DNA of 64,000 nt from Hydra vulgaris. Its lineage: Eukaryota; Cnidaria; Hydrozoa; Anthoathecata; Hydridae. The number at the start of each line of letters is the position of its first letter. Within the stretch, counting starts at the first letter, position 1. Positions 32,245 through 64,000 of this stretch are shown here, piece by piece. Where the stretch lies: contig NC_088929.1 of NCBI RefSeq assembly GCF_038396675.1, positions 33,602,501 through 33,666,500 of the forward strand, given 5' to 3'. The notes beneath the pieces were generated by a model. That model made no database searches. It saw only the letters and a program-made list of their open reading frames with translations, and had not been told where the DNA came from. The position numbers and the translations under genes were made by a program.

Positions 32245-35200
32245 ATGGCTGATAAGGATGAGTACCTCTACTTAGCTCGTTTAGCTGAACAAGCAGAACG
32301 ATACGAAGGTAAATTATATCAGTTTAAGATATTAGCAAGTTGTATAATAAATTGAGTTTAAGATTTTTTTGATGAAATATTAGCTCAGTTTAAAAAGTAT
32401 ATTTTTAACTGTTTCGATTTTCATCGATCTTTGATAAAAAGTATCAATTATTTTAATGTAAATATGTGTTACAACTGCACTAGGCGTATGGCTATCCATC
32501 TCTAATACATACATGGTTTTGTGATTTTTATATTTTTACACAATTACCTAGTAACTAGCAAAAAATAGTATAAAATGAGTATATATGTATTTACTGTAAA
32601 TAACTTATTAAAATTATTTACAGTAGATTGCAAATAAATGTTTTTAATAAAAAAACATACTTTCATAATAATATGTAGGATATGGTATTTAAAGAATGAT
32701 TTATTATTTTTCTAAGAATATTTTTAAATATTAATTTGGATATTCTATTTTATTAAATAGTATCTCGCATTCTCTTTGTTTGTATGTATTATAATCATAT
32801 TCTTCTGTAATTAGTAAATTAGTTTTTAATTCAAATTGAATTTTAGTGGTATAAAGATTAAAATAGTTACCCTATTAAGCTTTAATCTAATTTATACATT
32901 ACTATTTTTTATGAATCACTAATTTTTTATATACTTTTTTTTCAAAATGTATATTTATTATGAAGGTATTTTTATATCTATATGTTTCAATGTTTCAATT
33001 TTTAAAAATAAAACTAAAACAGTTCACATTTGAAATTATTTTTACCTTATGAAGCTCTAGTTGAAATCATTTACCTATATGCCTATTACCATGTGACTTT
33101 AAGTATTAAGCTTAAAAAGTTTATGTGAATGAAGAATAATTTTAAAATAAGAAGTTTATTAGTAGTATTAATAGAAATAACAAAACCATAGTTTTTATGC
33201 ATTATAACCTAAATTAGTATTTTTTATATAAAACAATTATTCATTTTGTGTATTAGTTTTTGTTTTTTTTGAGTCAAGTTGACTCTCAAAAAGTATTTAA
33301 ATTATTTCTTTTCTTTAATAATATTATGGGTTCATTAAATTTTTTCAGAGCCTTGTTACACCCCTAAAAATGTTTTTAATTTTTTCAATTTAGCATTTGT
33401 TTACTCTATAATGCACATTTGAAGAGTATGGGAAGATATTTTTGAAAAGTTTTGTTTAACTACCTCCCAAATATTCATATCATAAAAGAATTTTATTTTT
33501 AGTTAGCGACAATTTACTTTTCTTTTTTTTGTTTGTTTATTTCTTACTTTTTTTTTGAACAAGGAAGCAACAATATATGTTTTACTTAAACTTATTTATC
33601 AACTGAAGCTATTTTTAATAATTGTTGTAAATAATTTATATAAAGATTTTTAATTGTTATTTTATTAGCACCTATTGCTTACATTATCATTTATGTTTGG
33701 ATTATCTCATATCATCAATTATGGATGGATTATCTCATAGAAAGAGTAGGGACTGCAAAAAAAAAAGTTCTTAGCAAAAAATAAGCTGGTTTTAATTAAA
33801 ATTATGTCTTATTTCATGATTGGGTTTAAATGTTTTTAAAGTAATTAATTACAGTGTAATGTTTTCTAAAAAAACCCTCAAATAAACAGTGTTAAAAGAT
33901 AATTTAAATATTTTAAGGGAGATAACAGTTTTGATATAATAAAAATTGTGTTACACACATTAATAACAGACAATATAATTAAATCCATACAGCTTAACAA
34001 ATTATTTTTTATACCTTATTTAGAAAAAGTGTACAAATCTATGGATGTATTATATATATTTATATATATATTGTTTAGAAATCCTAACTTGAATCAAAGT
34101 ATTTTTTCAGAAAAAGAAAGAAAACAAGAGAGCTACAGGGTCATTCCATGTCAAATCAACCCCAAAAATAATTTTCGGCACCATGCCATTTCAGATTTTG
34201 ATGATTTTTGGAATACAAGCTTATATTAATGAAAGAAAACTTCATTCCAAATTTTAGTGTCTGAATCCTTACAGTTTCATAGATATCAAATCCAATCTCT
34301 TTTTGGATTATATTTTCAGCGTCATTTTCTTTTAAAGCCAGTTACATATCATAATTAGCTTTAACTTATGAAGTACTTGCTCAATAGTGTTAAAAATTTG
34401 TACCTAACTATTTTTTAGAGAGAAGAGCTCAAAAATGATACCTAAAACACTAAAAAATTAAATCTTCACTATGAAAATTCAATTTCAAAATGGTGTAACA
34501 CTTTTTATAAGTTTTTTGATGCCCCGTACAAAATATGTTTATCTTGAGATGCCTGAAAGACATGATTATAAAATTTTTTTTCTAATGTTCTATATATAAC
34601 AAATGCAATAAAACAAAAAAACTGCAAGGGTAATCTTTTTTAAATCAGATTTATTTGCATTTAAAGTTTTATATTTCTAAACCCCAAAAATATTGAAATT
34701 CAAAAATAAACCATGGAAATAATTAAATTGTAATGCTTTGATGATCAATTTCACTGATTTTGTATTGTCTTCCTGTGACAATTGTTGGAATATTAACCAT
34801 TAAAAATAAGTTTGTTGATGGAACCCAGCACACACCATCTCTATCAGATTTATTTGCATTTAAAGATTTATATTTCTAAACCCCAAAAATATTGAAATTC
34901 AAAAATAAACCATGGAAATAATTAAATTGTAATAAAAAAAGTTAAAATAAGACAATAAGAATTAACAATCTTTAACAGTTTTATAAAAAATTAGTTCTCT
35001 GGTTTAAAGTTTACTCAGCTTTCTTTAATGCTTTGATGATCAATTTCACTGATTTTGTATTGTCTTCCTGTGACAATTGTTGGAATATTAATCATTAAAA
35101 ATAAGTTTGTTGATGGAACCCAACACACACCATCTTTAGAAGACTAGCAATATGACCTTGAAGGGTAAAATAGATGCACGAATCTAACTTAACAGTTTTA

Positions 35201-38200
35201 AATTTCAACATCAATATCCTCCACTAGTCCAATCTATGGGTTGGTATTATAAACCAAACATGCAAACATTTCAATGCTTATATTAGTCAAGCAATCTTTA
35301 ATATTCTCATCAGTTTTTCAAACTGATGAGAATATTAAAGATCATCATCAGTTTTTCAAACTGATGAGGTTATTAAAGTTTCAACGTTTTTGTTGAAAAT
35401 CTTTGAAAAAAATTTCAATTTTTGAGTTATCATGTTTGACTCCTTAGATACGTATCAAAAACTAATTCCTATGATTTCATTTTCATAAAAAAAAAAAAAA
35501 AAACATTCCAGATGCTGTAAGTATGATTTGTTGTTGCTCAATGAAGGCTAGCAGTTGAAGTTAGTCTTTTAACAGTCCCACCAAAACCATCATAGGGTGA
35601 TTTACCATGGCTTGTTGCAAAGAAAAACCATGTACATTTCATAGCAAAATCTTGCCCATGGTGGTATATATTTATGAAATATTTGCAATTTTGTACTGGC
35701 CAGCACACCCATCTGAAAGTAATGAACAGTTTCTATTTGATGAGAAATATTGCTTTTAATATGTTCCATTGATAACTTCATTGCATGATATACCATATCT
35801 ACATCATGCAGTTAATCATCTGAGATAAAACATATTGAATCACATTTAAGGACATTATTTACTTTATAATAAACTACTGTAGGATGCAATGTTGCTTGAA
35901 CTTTGTTTCAGTGAAAAATTTGTACTTCGTCTTGTACAACAAACTCATAATTTTCTGAAAAATCACAAAGGACAATGACCTCAGTACTATTTAACTCATT
36001 TTTTATTTTCTATAAAAAATCAGCAATGTATGAATGTTTTGCAATGTAAAAATGAAAAGTAAGTTTTGTAACTTATTTATTTAAGTATTAATTAAGCTAC
36101 TTGATTTCTGTTAGACTTACTAGCACAGATCGGTCTGTTGTCTTCCATTGTTTGTAATCTATACAATAACCATGATCTTCATCAATATCTACTTGAGAGT
36201 AGAATTCATTTTCAAGATAATGTCTTAATAAAGAATCTTCTGGACACAGAGGGCAACAATGTAACATGCAATTCTTGTTAGCCCTACTAGAAATAAATCA
36301 ATAAGTTCATGATAAACCTTGGATGATTCAACTGCACTAATCATTAACCAGATGCTCACACTGTAATGCCCCATTATGGGCGATTTGAGCAACAGTGAGA
36401 AAAACAAGTTTTTATATCAGGATAACTGATTTTAAACTTAGCATACAGTAAATGCACATAAGTACAAATGAAATATTTCCTTTTCTTTTTTTTTTCAGGG
36501 AAAGACACCATTTTTCAGCAGCAGTTTGCGTGATATCTGCACCATATAATTAGTAACACTAAATTATTTTTCTATACATTTATTAGACCAAGGTATTGGA
36601 AACAGTAGTAATTAAATTTTCTGATTCCATTTGAAAGTTAAGATTTTTTCTTTAATTTTTCCTAAAAGTATATCCATATCATTTGCTTTTCATTTAACTT
36701 CCTCATATAACTTATTGAAGGAATCTTCTTGGCTTAACTGATCAGGACCTTTATTTAAAGTCCTTGCAATACCTAACTTTACTGTTTTTTGAACATGTAA
36801 CATTTCTTTTTACCGAGAGCAACTCTTGAGTGACTATTCACAGCATGCGTTTTGAGAGAACTTATGTTCATAACCGTCAAAAAAGAATTGAGATTTAAGA
36901 AGTTCATTATCTTCATCTTCATAAATCTGGCTGCTAGTTGGTTCTCCCGGTCCAACATCCTTAAATGACATTTAGTTATACATTATGAACATATCTTTTC
37001 TTTATTATACAATTTTTTTTATTAATCCAATTGAACATCTTTCTTTATCATTAATATTTTTATATTATTTTTTAGTTCTTTAAGAAATTTTTTTAAAATA
37101 ATTATTTGAAGATTCGTAAACAAAAAATCCTTCATTAAACATGAAGGTTATGCAAAGTGAAGATCTTTAATGTGAAATGCAAACAAGTTTATATATTAGA
37201 ACTGTACCTGAGATTCTAAAATCTTTTTGAAACAATGCAAAAATTAATGTATATAATTTTTTTTTTTCATTATTAAATATCAATTTTTCTAATTTTTTTT
37301 ATAAAACTTTTAATGCAAATAAATCAGATTCAAAAAAGAAAACCTCTGCAGTTTTTTTGTAATAAGGAGTTTTGTTATATATAAAAACATAGGAAAAATT
37401 TCTTTTAGGCATCTCAAGGTATACTTTTTTTTGTACCGGACATCAAAAAACTTATAAAAAGTGTTACACCATTTTGAAATTGAATTTTCATAGTGAAGTT
37501 TAAATTTTTTAGTGTTTTAGGTATCATTTTTGAGTTCTTTTCTCTAAAAAATAGTTTGGTACAAATTTTCAACGCTATTGAGCAAGTACTTCATAAGTTA
37601 AAGCTAATTATGTTATGTAACTAGCTTTAAAAGAAAATGGTGCTGAAAAATATAATTAAAAAAATGGATTTGATATCTATGAAATCGTAAGGATTCAGAC
37701 ACTAAAATTTGGAGTGAAGTTTTCTTTCATTAATATCAGCTTGTATTGCGAAAATTATCAAAATCTGAGATAGCATGGTGCTGTGCATAAATTGAATTGA
37801 GCTGGAATCACCCTACAACAGAGATCATAAGCCTTCTTTCAGCAGCCTCAAAACCACTTTATTAACTTTTAGAGTTATATTTTATTAGAAAACAGCATTA
37901 GAGTTGCATAGTCACTATCAAAGAATCTCAAGCAAAAATCCATAATTATAGTTAAAAAGATCTTTTTTTTTTCATATCCTAAAAAGAAAACAATGTAAAA
38001 CAGGCTTGACTCTAAGCTAGCCTATTAGATGAAGAAGGGGTGCAAGGCTGGTTAAATTAAATTTTCTGCTTACCCCATAAAGTCTTAGCCTATGAGGCTT
38101 TCTACAAAACAGTAGTTAAATTTTAAAAACTAGTTGATTGGGTATTTTTATTAAGACACTATTTTTAGTCTTAACTCAACCAAGAGCTCCATGGTTATTA

Positions 38201-57262: not shown

Positions 57263-57659
57263 GAATAATGTGAAATTTCATCAGACAAAATAGCTTACGG
57301 GTAATTCCCTGTCAAAACAACAAAAATTCAAAAAAAAATAACCCACTATCTCTAAAGAACTTAATTTTTGCAACAAAGATACTTAACTACGCTAAAAAGA
57401 ATTTCCCAAAGTTGATTTAAACAAATCGGAATATTTTAGAAGTTATGCTAGTTTGAAATTCAAAAGTAGCATTTTTACTTAACACGCTCCCCTAGCAACG
57501 TCCTTAGTAACAAGTAAATGTCGATACATACGTTGTTACCTTGACTATATTCTTTCATAATTTGAAATTTTCCACATATATCCTAGATACTATACCATAA
57601 AATTATACTAAGAAATAATAGTTTTTTATATTTATTAATAAATCAATAAGAGAAAATCG

Positions 57660-58396
57660 GCGTTTTTAATAAAATTTAAAAGTAAACATGCTTACTTTAA
57701 GAAGAATTACAGAAAAGGTTATGATCTATATATTTCCAAACTTCATATTCTTAAAGTATATATAAATATCTAAAAAAAAACAAAAAAAAAACTGCGCTGT
57801 TTTTTTGACTTACTAATCTAAAAAATTTAATTTTTACTTTTGATTGATAGTATATTGAGATTGGACAGAAGATTGATAAGTAATTATGTTTAGGCACATC
57901 CAGAAAGTAAAAGTTCTCATTTATGTGTAAAACTACAATATGAATACTTAATGAACTCAATTAAAAATATATAAACATTAAAGACAGGTATATTCACTCA
58001 GAGCTAGTCAAAAAAATAAAAGGTATTTTCACTTAGGTGTAAAACTGCAATATCCATGTACATAAATAAACTCAATTTTAAATATCAAAACGCATTAACT
58101 CTTTGAATTCCGTGTTTTTATGAATTGACAAATCTTTATACAAATTAGTGAACTATAAATATTTTTTTGTTTTTCTTTGAACTGTAAAACAAAACAAAAT
58201 TAGGTAATTTTTTTTTAACAAATGAAATATATTGTCATATACATATCATAGACATACACAAACTGACGATTCTGAGTAATAATTGATAAAAAGGAGCAAC
58301 CAAATGTCTTTCAAGATTCAAGAGCCATGTTGGTAAATAAATTTAAATTCCACATCAACTTTGCACATCACTTTGCATCTTACAATTTTTAAATAT
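57660..58396. other. Non-coding part of transposon copy 2
   Basis: AT-rich sequence between the terminal region and the 3' end of the transposase frame. TGTAAAACTGCAATATCCATG and a related TGTAAAACTACAATATGAAT segment recur near 57926 and 58040. No coding signal. Confidence 0.4.
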
Positions 58397-61300
58397 TTAA
58401 GTCAAACTAGGCATAGTATCATCACTGCAGTATCTTATCTTAACTTCATTTTGACATACAGGAATAAATTCATGAAAGTCTTTAGTTCCAGGTATTGTTT
58501 TTACATTTTTAAATCGTTCAGATTGTAATAATCTTGTTTCGACCAAACTTTCACTTGAAATAAAAATAAAGTTTATACCTTTGATGTTGTTAGTGCAATA
58601 TGTAAACATATCACGTGAGTTCAATATTTGATTTGTAGAAATTTTCTGCAAACTAGCATTAGCTACAAGCCGTTTAACTGTTCCTCCTATACCATGACAA
58701 GGTTGCTTTCCATGGCTGGTTGCAAAGAAAACCCATTTTGCATCTGTCCCAAAGTCTGATTTATGCTGATATAGGTTAAAAATGTTTTTGCAGTATTTAT
58801 ACTGATATAAACAGCCATTAGAAAAATAGATCACGTTTGCAATGCTGGGTATCTTTTGCTTCAGATTATTTATAATTTAAGTCAGATCAGGTTATCCTTC
58901 TACTGGTAACATGTAACCCAGTACAATCTGCTTCATGTCCTGCTGCCTTGTAGGATACGCCTTTGTAGGCAAAGGCTAGGAGATGCCAACTCCGATTTAA
59001 AACACCCCCTGCCTTGGGGCTCTTGGTTGAGTTAAGGCTAGAGATGGTGTCTCGATAAAAATACTCATCTTGGGCAAATGTTAAATGCACCCCGCTACTG
59101 ACTTGTAGAAGGCCTCTTAGGCAAAGACTTAAGGGGTAAACAGATTCTATCTGCTGACCAGCCTCGCACCCCTTCTTCATCTATTAGGCTGGCGCAGATG
59201 TATTTTTAATACATTGTTTCCAGTTTAGGATGTTGAATACTGGATCTTCTTGACTCAATGCATGGGTTTTGCTTGTGTCTCTGTTTTTATGACTAGGCAA
59301 CTCATTCTATTATCTCCTAATGAGGTTACAGCTCTAAAACTCAGTTTTATGGTTCTGAGGCCGGCTGGTAGTCAGGTTTCCCGAACTCTGTGGTAGCTCT
59401 CAGAGAGGCTGATTCCATCAACAACTGAAAAATGTCAAAGTATTAACAGTGCCATGTTGCACATGGATGGTGTCCCTGTTTGTGCTTTTGGTGTGCATTG
59501 TGGAGGCCACATTTGGAGCCCTTTGTTACGGCTTAGGGTTTATTAGTAGTAATGAGGCAATTGCTTGGGCTATTAAACGGTGTTCTGAGTACTATCAATA
59601 TGCTACAATGCTTTGAGTCAAGTTCATCAATCTAATTTAAAAATGAATAAAGTACCAAAAACCATAAAACACAAAAAACCATCATCATCACCAAGTTCTC
59701 TAAACCTATTATTCACTAATATTCGTGGTCTTCGAAGTAACTTTTCTTCTGTTGAGTCTTATCTCTTGCAAATTTCACCAGACCTACTTGCTCTTTGTGA
59801 GACTAATTTGAGTTCGGCTGTCTCATCTTGTGATCTTAGTGTTGATGGTTATCTTCCTCTAATTCGTAAAGACTCCATTAGTCACATGCTTGGCCTCGGC
59901 ATTTACATTCGTAAGAATTCACCCATTTGTCGTGAAACTAGGTTTGAATCCACAGTCTATTCTTTCATGTGCTTTCGTTTAGCACCACTTCACTCTATTG
60001 CCTTTCTCTTTGTTCCATATCGCTCTCCTTCATCTCAAGACTGCACTCTTTTTGACGTTATTTCTGATCATATTGACCAAGCCCTCTCTCTTTATCCATC
60101 AGCTAATATAGTTGTTGTCGGTGACTTCAATGCTCACCACTCTGAATGGCTTGGCTCTAGTGTCATTGACTCTGCAGGCATTAAAGCCTACAACTTTTGC
60201 CTTTCTCAATCCCTAACTTAAATAGTCAACTTTCTAACTCGCTTTCCTGACAACCCGAATCATTTACCTTCTCTACTTGACTTATGTCTTGTTTCTGATC
60301 CTAGTCAGTGCTCAGTTTCTCCACATTCACCCTTAGGTTTTTCTGATCACAGTTTGATCTTTCTAAAACTAATATCTCATTCTTCTTCATCACCTGAATC
60401 CCCCTATTATCGAACCTCTTACAACTACAGTAAAGCTGACTGGAATTCTTTCCATGATTTTCTTTGTGATGGCCCTTGGGTAGAAATCTTTCGTCTTCCT
60501 GTCGACAAATGTGCTTCTTACATAACTTCGTGGATTCAGGCTGGAATGGAATCTTTTATTCCCTCTCGACAATTCCTGGTCAAGCCTCACTCTCCTCCAT
60601 GGTTTTCCTCACACTGTGCTGCTGCGATTGCCAATCGAAACCGTTACTTCCATATTTATCAGCAAAACAATTCTCCAGAAAACAGACCTCTGTTTATTAC
60701 TGCTAGAAACAATTGTAAAAAGGCTTTGGCTAACGCCAAAACCTGCTATTCTCAGGACATGAAATCTCGTATCTCCTCTCAAAAATTAGGCTCTCATGAC
60801 TTCTGGAGAATCTTTAATAATATCAATAATAACCACCTCTCTTTTATGGTTCAGACTTTGTCACCTCACCTAAAGACAAAGCCGAATTGTTTGCTAAAAA
60901 CTTTTCATCAATATCATCTCTTGATTCCACTAGTTGCGTTCTACCTGATATTGCCAACAAACAGGTTGATCCATTGCTTGACATTCATATCACTCCAACA
61001 TCTGTATCTAAAGTGATTTCCTGCCTAGACTCTTCTACAGCTTGTGGCCTGGACAACATACCTGTTATTGTCTTGCAGAAGTGTTCTCCGGAGCTGTCGC
61101 CAATACTCTTAAAACTATTCAACAAGTGCTTCTCAGAGTCTTATTTTCCAGCCTGCTGGAAGCGGCATCTGTTATCCCTATCTTCAAAAATTCTGGAGAA
61201 CGATCTGATTCGTATAACTACCGTCCCATAAGTCTTCTTTCTATCTTAAGCAAGGTTTTTGAATCTTTAATTAACAAACATTTAATTTCTCATCTTGAAT

Positions 61301-64000
61301 CCAATAACTTACTTTCTGACCATCAATATGGATTTTGATCTTCTTGTTCTACAGCTGATTTGCTAACAGTAATAACTGACAGGTTTTATCGTGCATTAGA
61401 TGAAGGTGGAGAGGTTAAGGTCATCGCTCTTGACATTTCAAAAGCTTTTGATAAAGTTTGGCATGCTAGTCTGCTCCATAAGCTTTCTTCTTATGGTGTA
61501 TCCGGCAACATCTTTAAGATCATTGAATCCTTCCTTTCCAATCGTAGCATAAAAGTTGTTCTCGATGGACAACACTCTTCTTCTTATTCTGTAACTTCAG
61601 GGGTTCCTCAAGGTTCTATCCTTGGCCTTATACTCTTTTTAATATACATTAATGATCTTCCAGATATTCTCACATCTAAGGTGGCATTGTTTGCTGATGA
61701 TACTACCATTTAATCTTGTCGTGATAAGAAACCAACACCCTATGATTGCTTGGAGGAGGCATTTGAGCTTGAAAAGGATCTCACTTCTGCTACAGCATGT
61801 GGCTCACAGTGGCTGGTGAACTTTAATTCAGATAAAACTCAATTTTTTTCAGCCAATCGTTATCGCAATAATTTAGAACTTCCTATATTTATGAACGGTG
61901 ATGTTCTCGATGAGTCACCTACTCTTCATCTTCTAGGATTAACTCTTACTTCCAACCTTTCTTGGAAACCATATACTAAATCAGTTGCAAAATTAGCATC
62001 TGCTAAGGTTGCATCTCTTTATCGAGCTCGTCACTTTCTTACTTCGGATTTTATTCTCTATCTCTATAAATCTCAAATCCGGCCTTGTATGAAATACTAT
62101 TGCCATATCTGGGGCAGATCTTCTAATGATGCTCTTTCTCTTTTAGAAAAGGTGCAAAAACGCATTGTAAGCATAGTTGGACCTGCTCGTGCAGCCAACC
62201 TCCAACCATTATCACATCGTCGTAATGTTGCTTCTCTTTCTCTTTTCTACAAATACTATAATGGGCTGGGCTCTAAAGAGCTAGCGTCTTGTGCCATCTA
62301 CTAAAATTCATTCTCGTGTTACTCGTCATTCAATTAAGTGTCATCCTTTTTCTGTGACTGTTCCTAAGTGCTCCAAAAACGCTTATTTGTCTAGTTTTTT
62401 TCCTCGAACATCAGTTCTTTGGAACTCGCTTCCTTCATCTTGCTTTCCTGATTCATATAATTTGCAATCTTTTAAGTCATCCATCAACCTTTATTCGCTC
62501 TACAATCTTCATCTTTTCTCTTTCAGTAACTTCCAACTTTAATTAGTGGCTGCTTGCAGTCTTGCTGGAACCGAAGATGTTTAAAAAAAAAATTGATTTT
62601 TGTACCTCGTAAACCATTGGTATCATGATTGTTATCATCTGATATAATGCAATATGAAGTGGAATGCAAAACTTAATTTTCTTTATAGTACACAACTACT
62701 GGATAAAGTGTGCACTGAAGATTATTATAATGGAAACCGTGTACTTTATCCTGCACAACAACTATAGTTTTCTACAAAATCTTCTAGAGTTATTGCCTTA
62801 TTTGATGGCAGTTCTTCTTTAAGATTTTTTAAATATTTAGATTGGCATTTAGAAATATATGAAGCTGTTAGCTTGACTAGTTTTTCCATCACCATATCTA
62901 CATCATCTGGTATGCTTACAAACTGTATAACTAAATCTGATCTATCAGTAGTAACCCATTGGTTAAATTCGATAGCATCTTCTTCCTCAAACTGCCCTAT
63001 TAGTTCGAATAGTTTTTCTTCTAATTTAGATGTACTTTTTGGACATTGTGTACATCGATTTAACATGCATTCTTTATTTTGCATATCACAAACAATAAAT
63101 TTATATAGTTCATGATAATCAATTTTAATGGGTAGGAGAATTAACTTCATGTTTTGATGGTAGATACAAACGCACACAGAATGGGTTCCTGATGAGTTTG
63201 GCAATACACACCATTTAGGTCTTAAAACGCAAAACTTGGAAAAACCTAACTTTACATGTGGATATAGAATTTTAAATGAGACAAATAACTCTTTCAAGCT
63301 TGAGAAAAGTAGTCGCTTTTGCATATGGACTTTCCAACTAACACTTACAAAATCTTTTTGACCAGGCATCTGGCGAGAGTTTTCACCATCTTCATAAAAA
63401 TTTTTCACATAAGTATTTATTTGATCAGGCAGCATTTTACCTCACTTAGCTTGTGTAACTGCTTCCTTCTTTGCTAAATATCTAGATTTTATTATTAGAT
63501 ACTTTGAAACACCAAAATACTCACTTGCTGCTTCAATTGACCATTCTTGTGGGCGCAAAGTCAATACTTGAATTTTGTCCTTAAATGAACAGCATTTTTC
63601 AAGTTAATCTTTTTTCAAAACTAACAATTTTTTGAACTGTACAACTTTTTTTTTTTAAATCAAGAATATATTCATTATCAAAAACTACAACTTCTGTCAA
63701 TGGAATTTTTAAAGAACTTAATAAATTTTCTTTTAAAACTGTTGATATAGTTTTAATTTTTTTTTCCCAATACTCATATGATTCGCAAATGGTTTTCCAT
63801 GAAGCTTGACTGGTGACATGCCAATTATACTGAGACAATCAGAAAATTCTTGTCTGTTTTTATTTATATCAGCCTCTTGTTGAACATTAAATACGTTTTC
63901 TTTATTTATACTTTCATTTGTGTAATCATCAGCAATATCAATGTTATCAGTATTAATTTCAACGGAAGCTTTTAATTTGACTAAGCATCTTGTACAAATT
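58397..64000 (-). pseudogene. Protein of the long-TIR transposon, copy 2, split by a LINE
   Basis: Presumed transposase; family recognised from many unnamed metazoan TE proteins, biochemistry unknown to me. Minus-strand order from the window end: CTRCLVKLKA (possible zinc-binding pair), GMSPVKLHGKPFANHM and, after a frameshift, DKIQVLTLRPQEWSIEAASE then FGVSKYLIIKSRYL (an HTH-like stretch, about 63560-63490). KDFVSVSWKVHMQKRLLFSS, FSKFCVLRPKWCV, GTHSVCVCIYHQNMKL, CTQCPKS and QWVTTDRSDLVIQF follow (63435-62746). Then come VHGFHYNNLQCTLYPVVVYY and CIISDDNNHD (about 62740-62600). After LINE copy [40 protein letters not shown] and TVKRLVANASL (58834-58600), ending near SDDTMPSLT. A stop follows VVYYKEN, and frameshifts are present near 63440 and 63600-63800. 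Confidence 0.75.
58880..62592 (+). pseudogene. LINE copy B (endonuclease plus RT), nearly full length
   Basis: Plus-strand CR1/Jockey-type retrotransposon, sister of copy A. The 5' non-coding region is 58880-59610. The coding region reads LLFTNIRGLRSNFSSVES, SPDLLALCETN and VVVGDFNAHHSEWLG (endonuclease), LGFSDHSLIFL and ADWNSFHDFLCDGPW. The RT gives ESLINKHLISHLESNNLLSD, VIALDISKAFDKVWHASLL (first Asp), SGVPQGSILGLILF and VALFADDTTI (catalytic box intact). The C-terminus is SVLWNSLPSSCFP. Stops at 60219, about 61336 and 61711 and frameshifts near 60870, 61175 and 62290 disable it. The 3' end has GAACCGAAGATGTTT followed by a short poly-A (about 62583-62592). It lies in antisense orientation in the coding region of the long-TIR transposon. 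Confidence 0.92.

Follow-up and report, generated by a model that had tools for sequence, protein, structure and literature searches.

A decayed Hydra transposon with long inverted ends and 4-bp target duplications, most likely a member of the Sola-2 group

Sola elements are DNA transposons described as having a transposase with three catalytic aspartates (DDD), 4-bp target-site duplications and inverted ends of 11–1124 bp (PMC10741241). Sola2 elements of amoebae have AT-rich 4-bp duplications and carry Fanzor1 proteins (PMC3627910). In Hydra vulgaris AEP, transposable elements amount to 596 Mb, i.e., 65.3% of the genome, and Sola-2 is among 14 putatively active families; the annotation names families by their best Dfam hit, and those with no hit become Unknown (PMC12220107). 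Here we describe a decayed transposon (copy 1) and a related element of another family (copy 2) in a 64,000-nucleotide stretch of H. vulgaris DNA (GCF_038396675.1, NC_088929.1, positions 33,602,501 to 33,666,500), hereafter the window, whose coordinates are used throughout. We put the probability at about 0.8 that copy 1, now dead, belongs to the cut-and-paste Sola superfamily and most likely to Sola-2, a label given by published descriptions and not by sequence comparison. The group is very probably an already known kind, large and in part recently active in Hydra, rather than a new mobile element.

A first-pass annotation of the window had proposed an element bounded at 34138 and 37813, with two inverted arms of about 500 bp and a TACA duplication at its flanks, and each of these proposals was borne out. 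Aligning the left arm with the reverse complement of the right, a check suggested by that annotation, pairs 34178-34673 with 37300-37781 in inverted orientation at 86.2% identity over 499 columns (blastn). Local alignment carries the pairing to the element ends, which, together with the starts of the arms, makes both bounds exact. Both arms start with GGGT(C/G)ATTCC, copy 2 starts at 57299 with GGGTAATTCC, and a 23-bp end pattern built from the ends of the two copies, with up to three mismatches allowed, has three matches in the window (both copy 1 ends and 57299) and none in 100 shuffles. The blastn pairing and the shuffles rule out inverted arms arising by chance. The outermost 30 bp of the right arm are unlike the left arm, a trait common to relatives in copy 1's family. 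TACA is present on both sides of copy 1, and two random flanks of the window agree at 4 bp in 0.9% of draws.

Other genomic copies confirm the long inverted ends and 4-bp duplications of this DNA transposon, as emerged when their flanks were tabulated along the lines first proposed. Besides copy 2, 33 places were inspected, namely copy 1, 20 stretches picked for their open frames and 12 elements picked for matches to the copy 1 end, a non-random sample from which the near relatives of copy 2 (L005-L011) were left out. Element ends were set by end similarity, independently of the flanks, and both ends were located at 23 places; the other ten, with one end or none found, were dropped (L016, which contains two genes, L018, L019, L026, L030, L031, L041, L042, L046 and L047). 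An exact 4-bp duplication flanks 20 of the 23 elements (7/10 in copy 1's family and 13/13 in other families) and a 5-bp match none of them, which does not fit hAT, P, MuDR and Zisupton, whose duplications are about 7–11 bp long. The non-exact flanks are TAAT/ATAT in an AT microsatellite (L045), TACA/CATA (L038/39) and AGCT/AGCC (L036/37). Adding copy 2, whose flanks TTAC and TTAA are alike in 3/4 bases, gives 24 pairs with 20 exact, two at 3/4 bases and two mismatched. The exact duplications are AT-rich, with 68/80 bases being A or T against 0.72 from window composition (p 0.005), a mild excess, and TTAA is not among the 20. The ends themselves are mostly GGGT, GGGC or GAGT, with the exceptions of GGTT (L036), GGAT (L043) and GGGA (L046, one end only), and 12 elements for which lengths were tabulated measure 3,441-5,291 bp.

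The transposase gene of copy 1 is broken by stops and frameshifts, and the aspartates of DFSEN, SDG and DGFGG are all kept. L029, a stop-free relative of copy 1's family, covers 34994-36559 piecewise (tblastn, best E 3.6e-118), with its residues 542-578 matching twice within the tandem duplication over the 3' end of the gene, and A6 members extend the match to 36895 (tblastn). The first-pass annotation had reported a decayed protein here whose conserved core, FATSHGK..GGTVKRL, recurs in the copy at 57299, and the protein proved real. In a frameshift-aware alignment the two copies share 134 identical residues over 298 codons, and their differences at codon positions 1/2/3 number 132/92/172, an excess at third positions and a sign of past selection on the protein. 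The core was likewise confirmed, as a degenerate TSHGK...GGxxK pattern matches once in each copy and never in 100 shuffles. With its stops and frameshifts, copy 1 can no longer encode a working enzyme. Within copy 1, a perfect hairpin of 23 bp with a 3-base loop lies at 35293-35342, adjoined by a partial duplicate.

The architecture of the protein was read from an alignment of 817 columns, comprising ten long open Hydra frames and one protein from outside Hydra (L002), of which about seven are independent families and the others near-copies. The Hydra frames are free of stops and some are incomplete: the N-terminal part is missing from L029, the C-terminal segment from L012 and L021. From N to C terminus the order is a PGxxLCxxC segment, a helix-turn-helix, a Cys/His region with seven invariant Cys/His residues, a D-D-D core and a C-terminal CKYD...WPxRxD segment. 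D430 (DFxEN), D516 (SDG; SDR in L029) and D557 (CDGIGGTVKR) are identical in 11/11 proteins, with a spacing of D-(80-86)-D-41-D, and only these three, E433 and E442 are core acids present in all 11 rows. On these residues, the proteins can be taken as putative DDD transposases. The core would have an RNase H arrangement, with D430 on one strand, D516 ending a later strand and D557 starting a helix. HTH_23 was matched in L019 only (E 0.00028, below the Pfam cut-off) among the 11 proteins scanned, and Pfam listed no integrase-core or other transposase model for them up to E 1. No relative was found in the viral contigs scanned, the phage and plasmid proteins gave only two phage rows, at chance level (E 0.2) and from the same phage, and the window has no Rfam match at gathering score.

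Relatives are widespread in the genome searched (911.5 Mb, 15 contigs). The copy-2 protein fragment has at least 152 matches (150 scored of 4366 first-look candidates), the L029 transposase at least 81 match rows (74 scored of 8108 candidates) and the copy 1 left end at least 56 match rows (40 scored of 394 candidates), some of the last being both arms of one element; unscored candidates are not counted as confirmed relatives. Among the 81 L029 rows, 25 have no internal stop, four of these being short pieces. In four families the members compared, at different sites, are 96.7-99.4% identical over the longest blastn piece (2.5-5.3 kb), with a maximum of 99.4% over 4.9 kb, and those four families have therefore moved recently. 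Copy 1's own family is older, at 82-91% identity over pieces of 0.9-2.5 kb. One family (L012, L013, L020, L021 and L022) has frames of 656-661 aa, with GGGT at one element end and GAGT at the other; the L012 and L021 frames stop shortly after PGTRSYHQFVP or a variant of it, and an intron at the C-terminal end of this family's frames is possible. At L016:3390-8060 two transposase frames face each other with their ends about 0.5 kb apart, and L030:1495-5136 holds a 1,214-aa open frame that takes in part of the transposase.

The relative from outside Hydra is a 690-aa open frame (L002:993-3062) on contig JAAEPJ010000558.1, filed under the bacterial metagenome-assembled genome Cli_8. A scan of genome contigs with poor patterns from a two-row alignment returned nothing, and a second scan returned three contigs, of which only L002 had a relative. 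Its protein shares the invariant acids and the Cys/His region of the Hydra transposases, has a different N-terminus and, as aligned, shows 27% identity with L019. Long inverted ends were not found on its 4-kb contig, where words like GTGTTGGACGTAC are repeated outside the gene. The frame is the only match in Cli_8, and the contig is probably contaminating host DNA.

If these parts act together as in a cut-and-paste transposon, the transposase would bind the long inverted ends through its N-terminal Cys-rich and helix-turn-helix parts, its RNase H-like D-D-D core would cut at the GGGT/GAGT ends, and joining to target strands staggered by 4 bp would leave the 4-bp duplication. We file the group under Sola because its AT-rich 4-bp duplications, long inverted ends and invariant D-D-D match the published marks of that superfamily; the inverted ends fall within 11-1124 bp and the element lengths within the mostly 2-9 kb expected. 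The doubt of the first-pass annotation over any known superfamily, for which it had named Sola1, Academ and Ginger2 and not Sola2, is not supported. Within the superfamily, Sola2 is alike in its AT-rich 4-bp duplications, its DDD transposase (a Sola-wide trait) and its putative activity in H. vulgaris AEP. The main argument for the name Sola-2 is indirect, in that, to our knowledge and going by duplication lengths, it is the sole DNA transposon with terminal inverted repeats on the AEP active list that makes 4-bp duplications at variable sites. The amoeba Sola2 elements differ in having inverted ends of 12-21 bp (PMC3627910), as against about 500 bp in copy 1.

Several points weigh against the assignment to Sola-2. 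The Sola-2 of the AEP annotation could be a different group, given that its labels are best Dfam hits. Four of the 24 end pairs depart from an exact duplication, as set out above. Two AlphaFold2 models, one from a single sequence and one from four alignment rows, each reached a mean predicted local distance difference test score (pLDDT) of 36.1, too poor to show whether the core folds like RNase H. Finally, Pfam, NCBIfam, PHROGs and PDB sequences returned no named transposase family for these proteins.

This last result would suit a DDD cut-and-paste superfamily with 4-bp duplications that has no name, is Sola-like in outline only, is common in Hydra with recent activity there, extends to at least one further lineage (L002), and has been folded into other classes by automatic annotation. 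The literature searched is in keeping with it, holding no mention that we found of the ATSHGK signature motif; a search with the element end words returned no transposon work evident from the titles among the papers listed. We nevertheless regard such a superfamily as unlikely, since a group so abundant and partly young should have been named by the Repbase/Dfam-based AEP annotation, in which Sola-2 is on the list (PMC12220107).

Other named groups fare worse than an unnamed one. Sola1 and Sola3 belong to the same superfamily and likewise make 4-bp duplications, and Sola1 is not separable here. Sola3 is known only from TTAA targets, whereas 0/20 exact duplications in Hydra are TTAA. Sola1, a named group in Repbase, has on its side the 4-bp duplications described for the superfamily (PMC10741241), but the putatively active list of the AEP study has Sola-2, not Sola1 (PMC12220107), and we hold Sola1 membership to be very improbable. 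Kolobok, Academ, Ginger and Chapaev are more improbable still. Each makes duplications of about 4 bp; however, the Gypsy-type integrase core of Ginger is absent from the models listed for the 11 proteins (Pfam, up to E 1), and the element ends are mostly GGGT, GGGC or GAGT, not the CAC of Chapaev. Kolobok, with its DDD/E transposase, is described as TTAA-specific (PMC9587614), whereas the Hydra sites vary and lack TTAA among their exact duplications.

Copy 2, whose inverted ends are identical at 528/660 aligned bases, is split by a long interspersed nuclear element (LINE). The LINE is absent from 7/7 near relatives of copy 2 (L005-L011), with breakpoints at 58877/62591, and an end of copy 2 near 58.9 kb was ruled out, as the element is interrupted by the LINE and then continues. 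At the break the near relatives overlap by 4 bp in 6/7 cases and by 6 bp in one, and the LINE's own target duplication therefore seems short. The second and third catalytic positions of copy 2 are N and H, i.e., dead. With these two changes, a frameshift and the split by the LINE, copy 2 has likewise lost the ability to encode a working enzyme. The features of both copies are collected in Table 1.

Table 1. Coordinates of the two elements and their parts in the window
Feature	Position	Strand	Basis or remark
Entire copy 1, a decayed transposon of 3,676 bp	34138..37813	.	Shared ends, inverted arms, TACA flanks
Left target-site duplication, TACA	34134..34137	.	
Right target-site duplication, TACA	37814..37817	.	
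Left terminal inverted repeat, copy 1	34138..34689	+	Local alignment; blastn 86.2%/499 columns
Right terminal inverted repeat, copy 1	37293..37813	-	Local alignment
Broken transposase gene, copy 1	34994..36895	-	tblastn; alignment to copy 2
Partial tandem duplication over 3' end of transposase gene	34644..35143	-	Repeat families D1 and D2
Copy 2, a related element from a different family	57299..64000	.	Continues to window coordinate 65248 (outside the window)
Copy 2 transposase piece with the second and third catalytic positions and the residues after them	58397..58876	-	
LINE inserted in copy 2	58878..62590	+	Pfam PF03372, PF14529, PF00078 (endonuclease and reverse transcriptase)
Copy 2 transposase piece, Cys/His region to first catalytic D	62746..63441	-	
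Copy 2 helix-turn-helix piece	63442..63603	-	Weak HTH_23 match, E 0.011, below Pfam cut-off
Copy 2 N-terminal piece with CTRC (CxxC) motif	63733..63999	-	

The first-pass annotation had regarded the element as under-described, and this stands in part. The protein libraries searched have no model for the transposase core, while in other respects this is an ordinary DDD transposon, very probably Sola-2. Should the group not be Sola-2, a large transposon group of a model animal would have been left nameless. If it is Sola-2, that core has still gone unrecognised by every model in those libraries, and the many stop-free, near-identical copies in Hydra, with their clean ends and duplications, would make the group testable for transposition.

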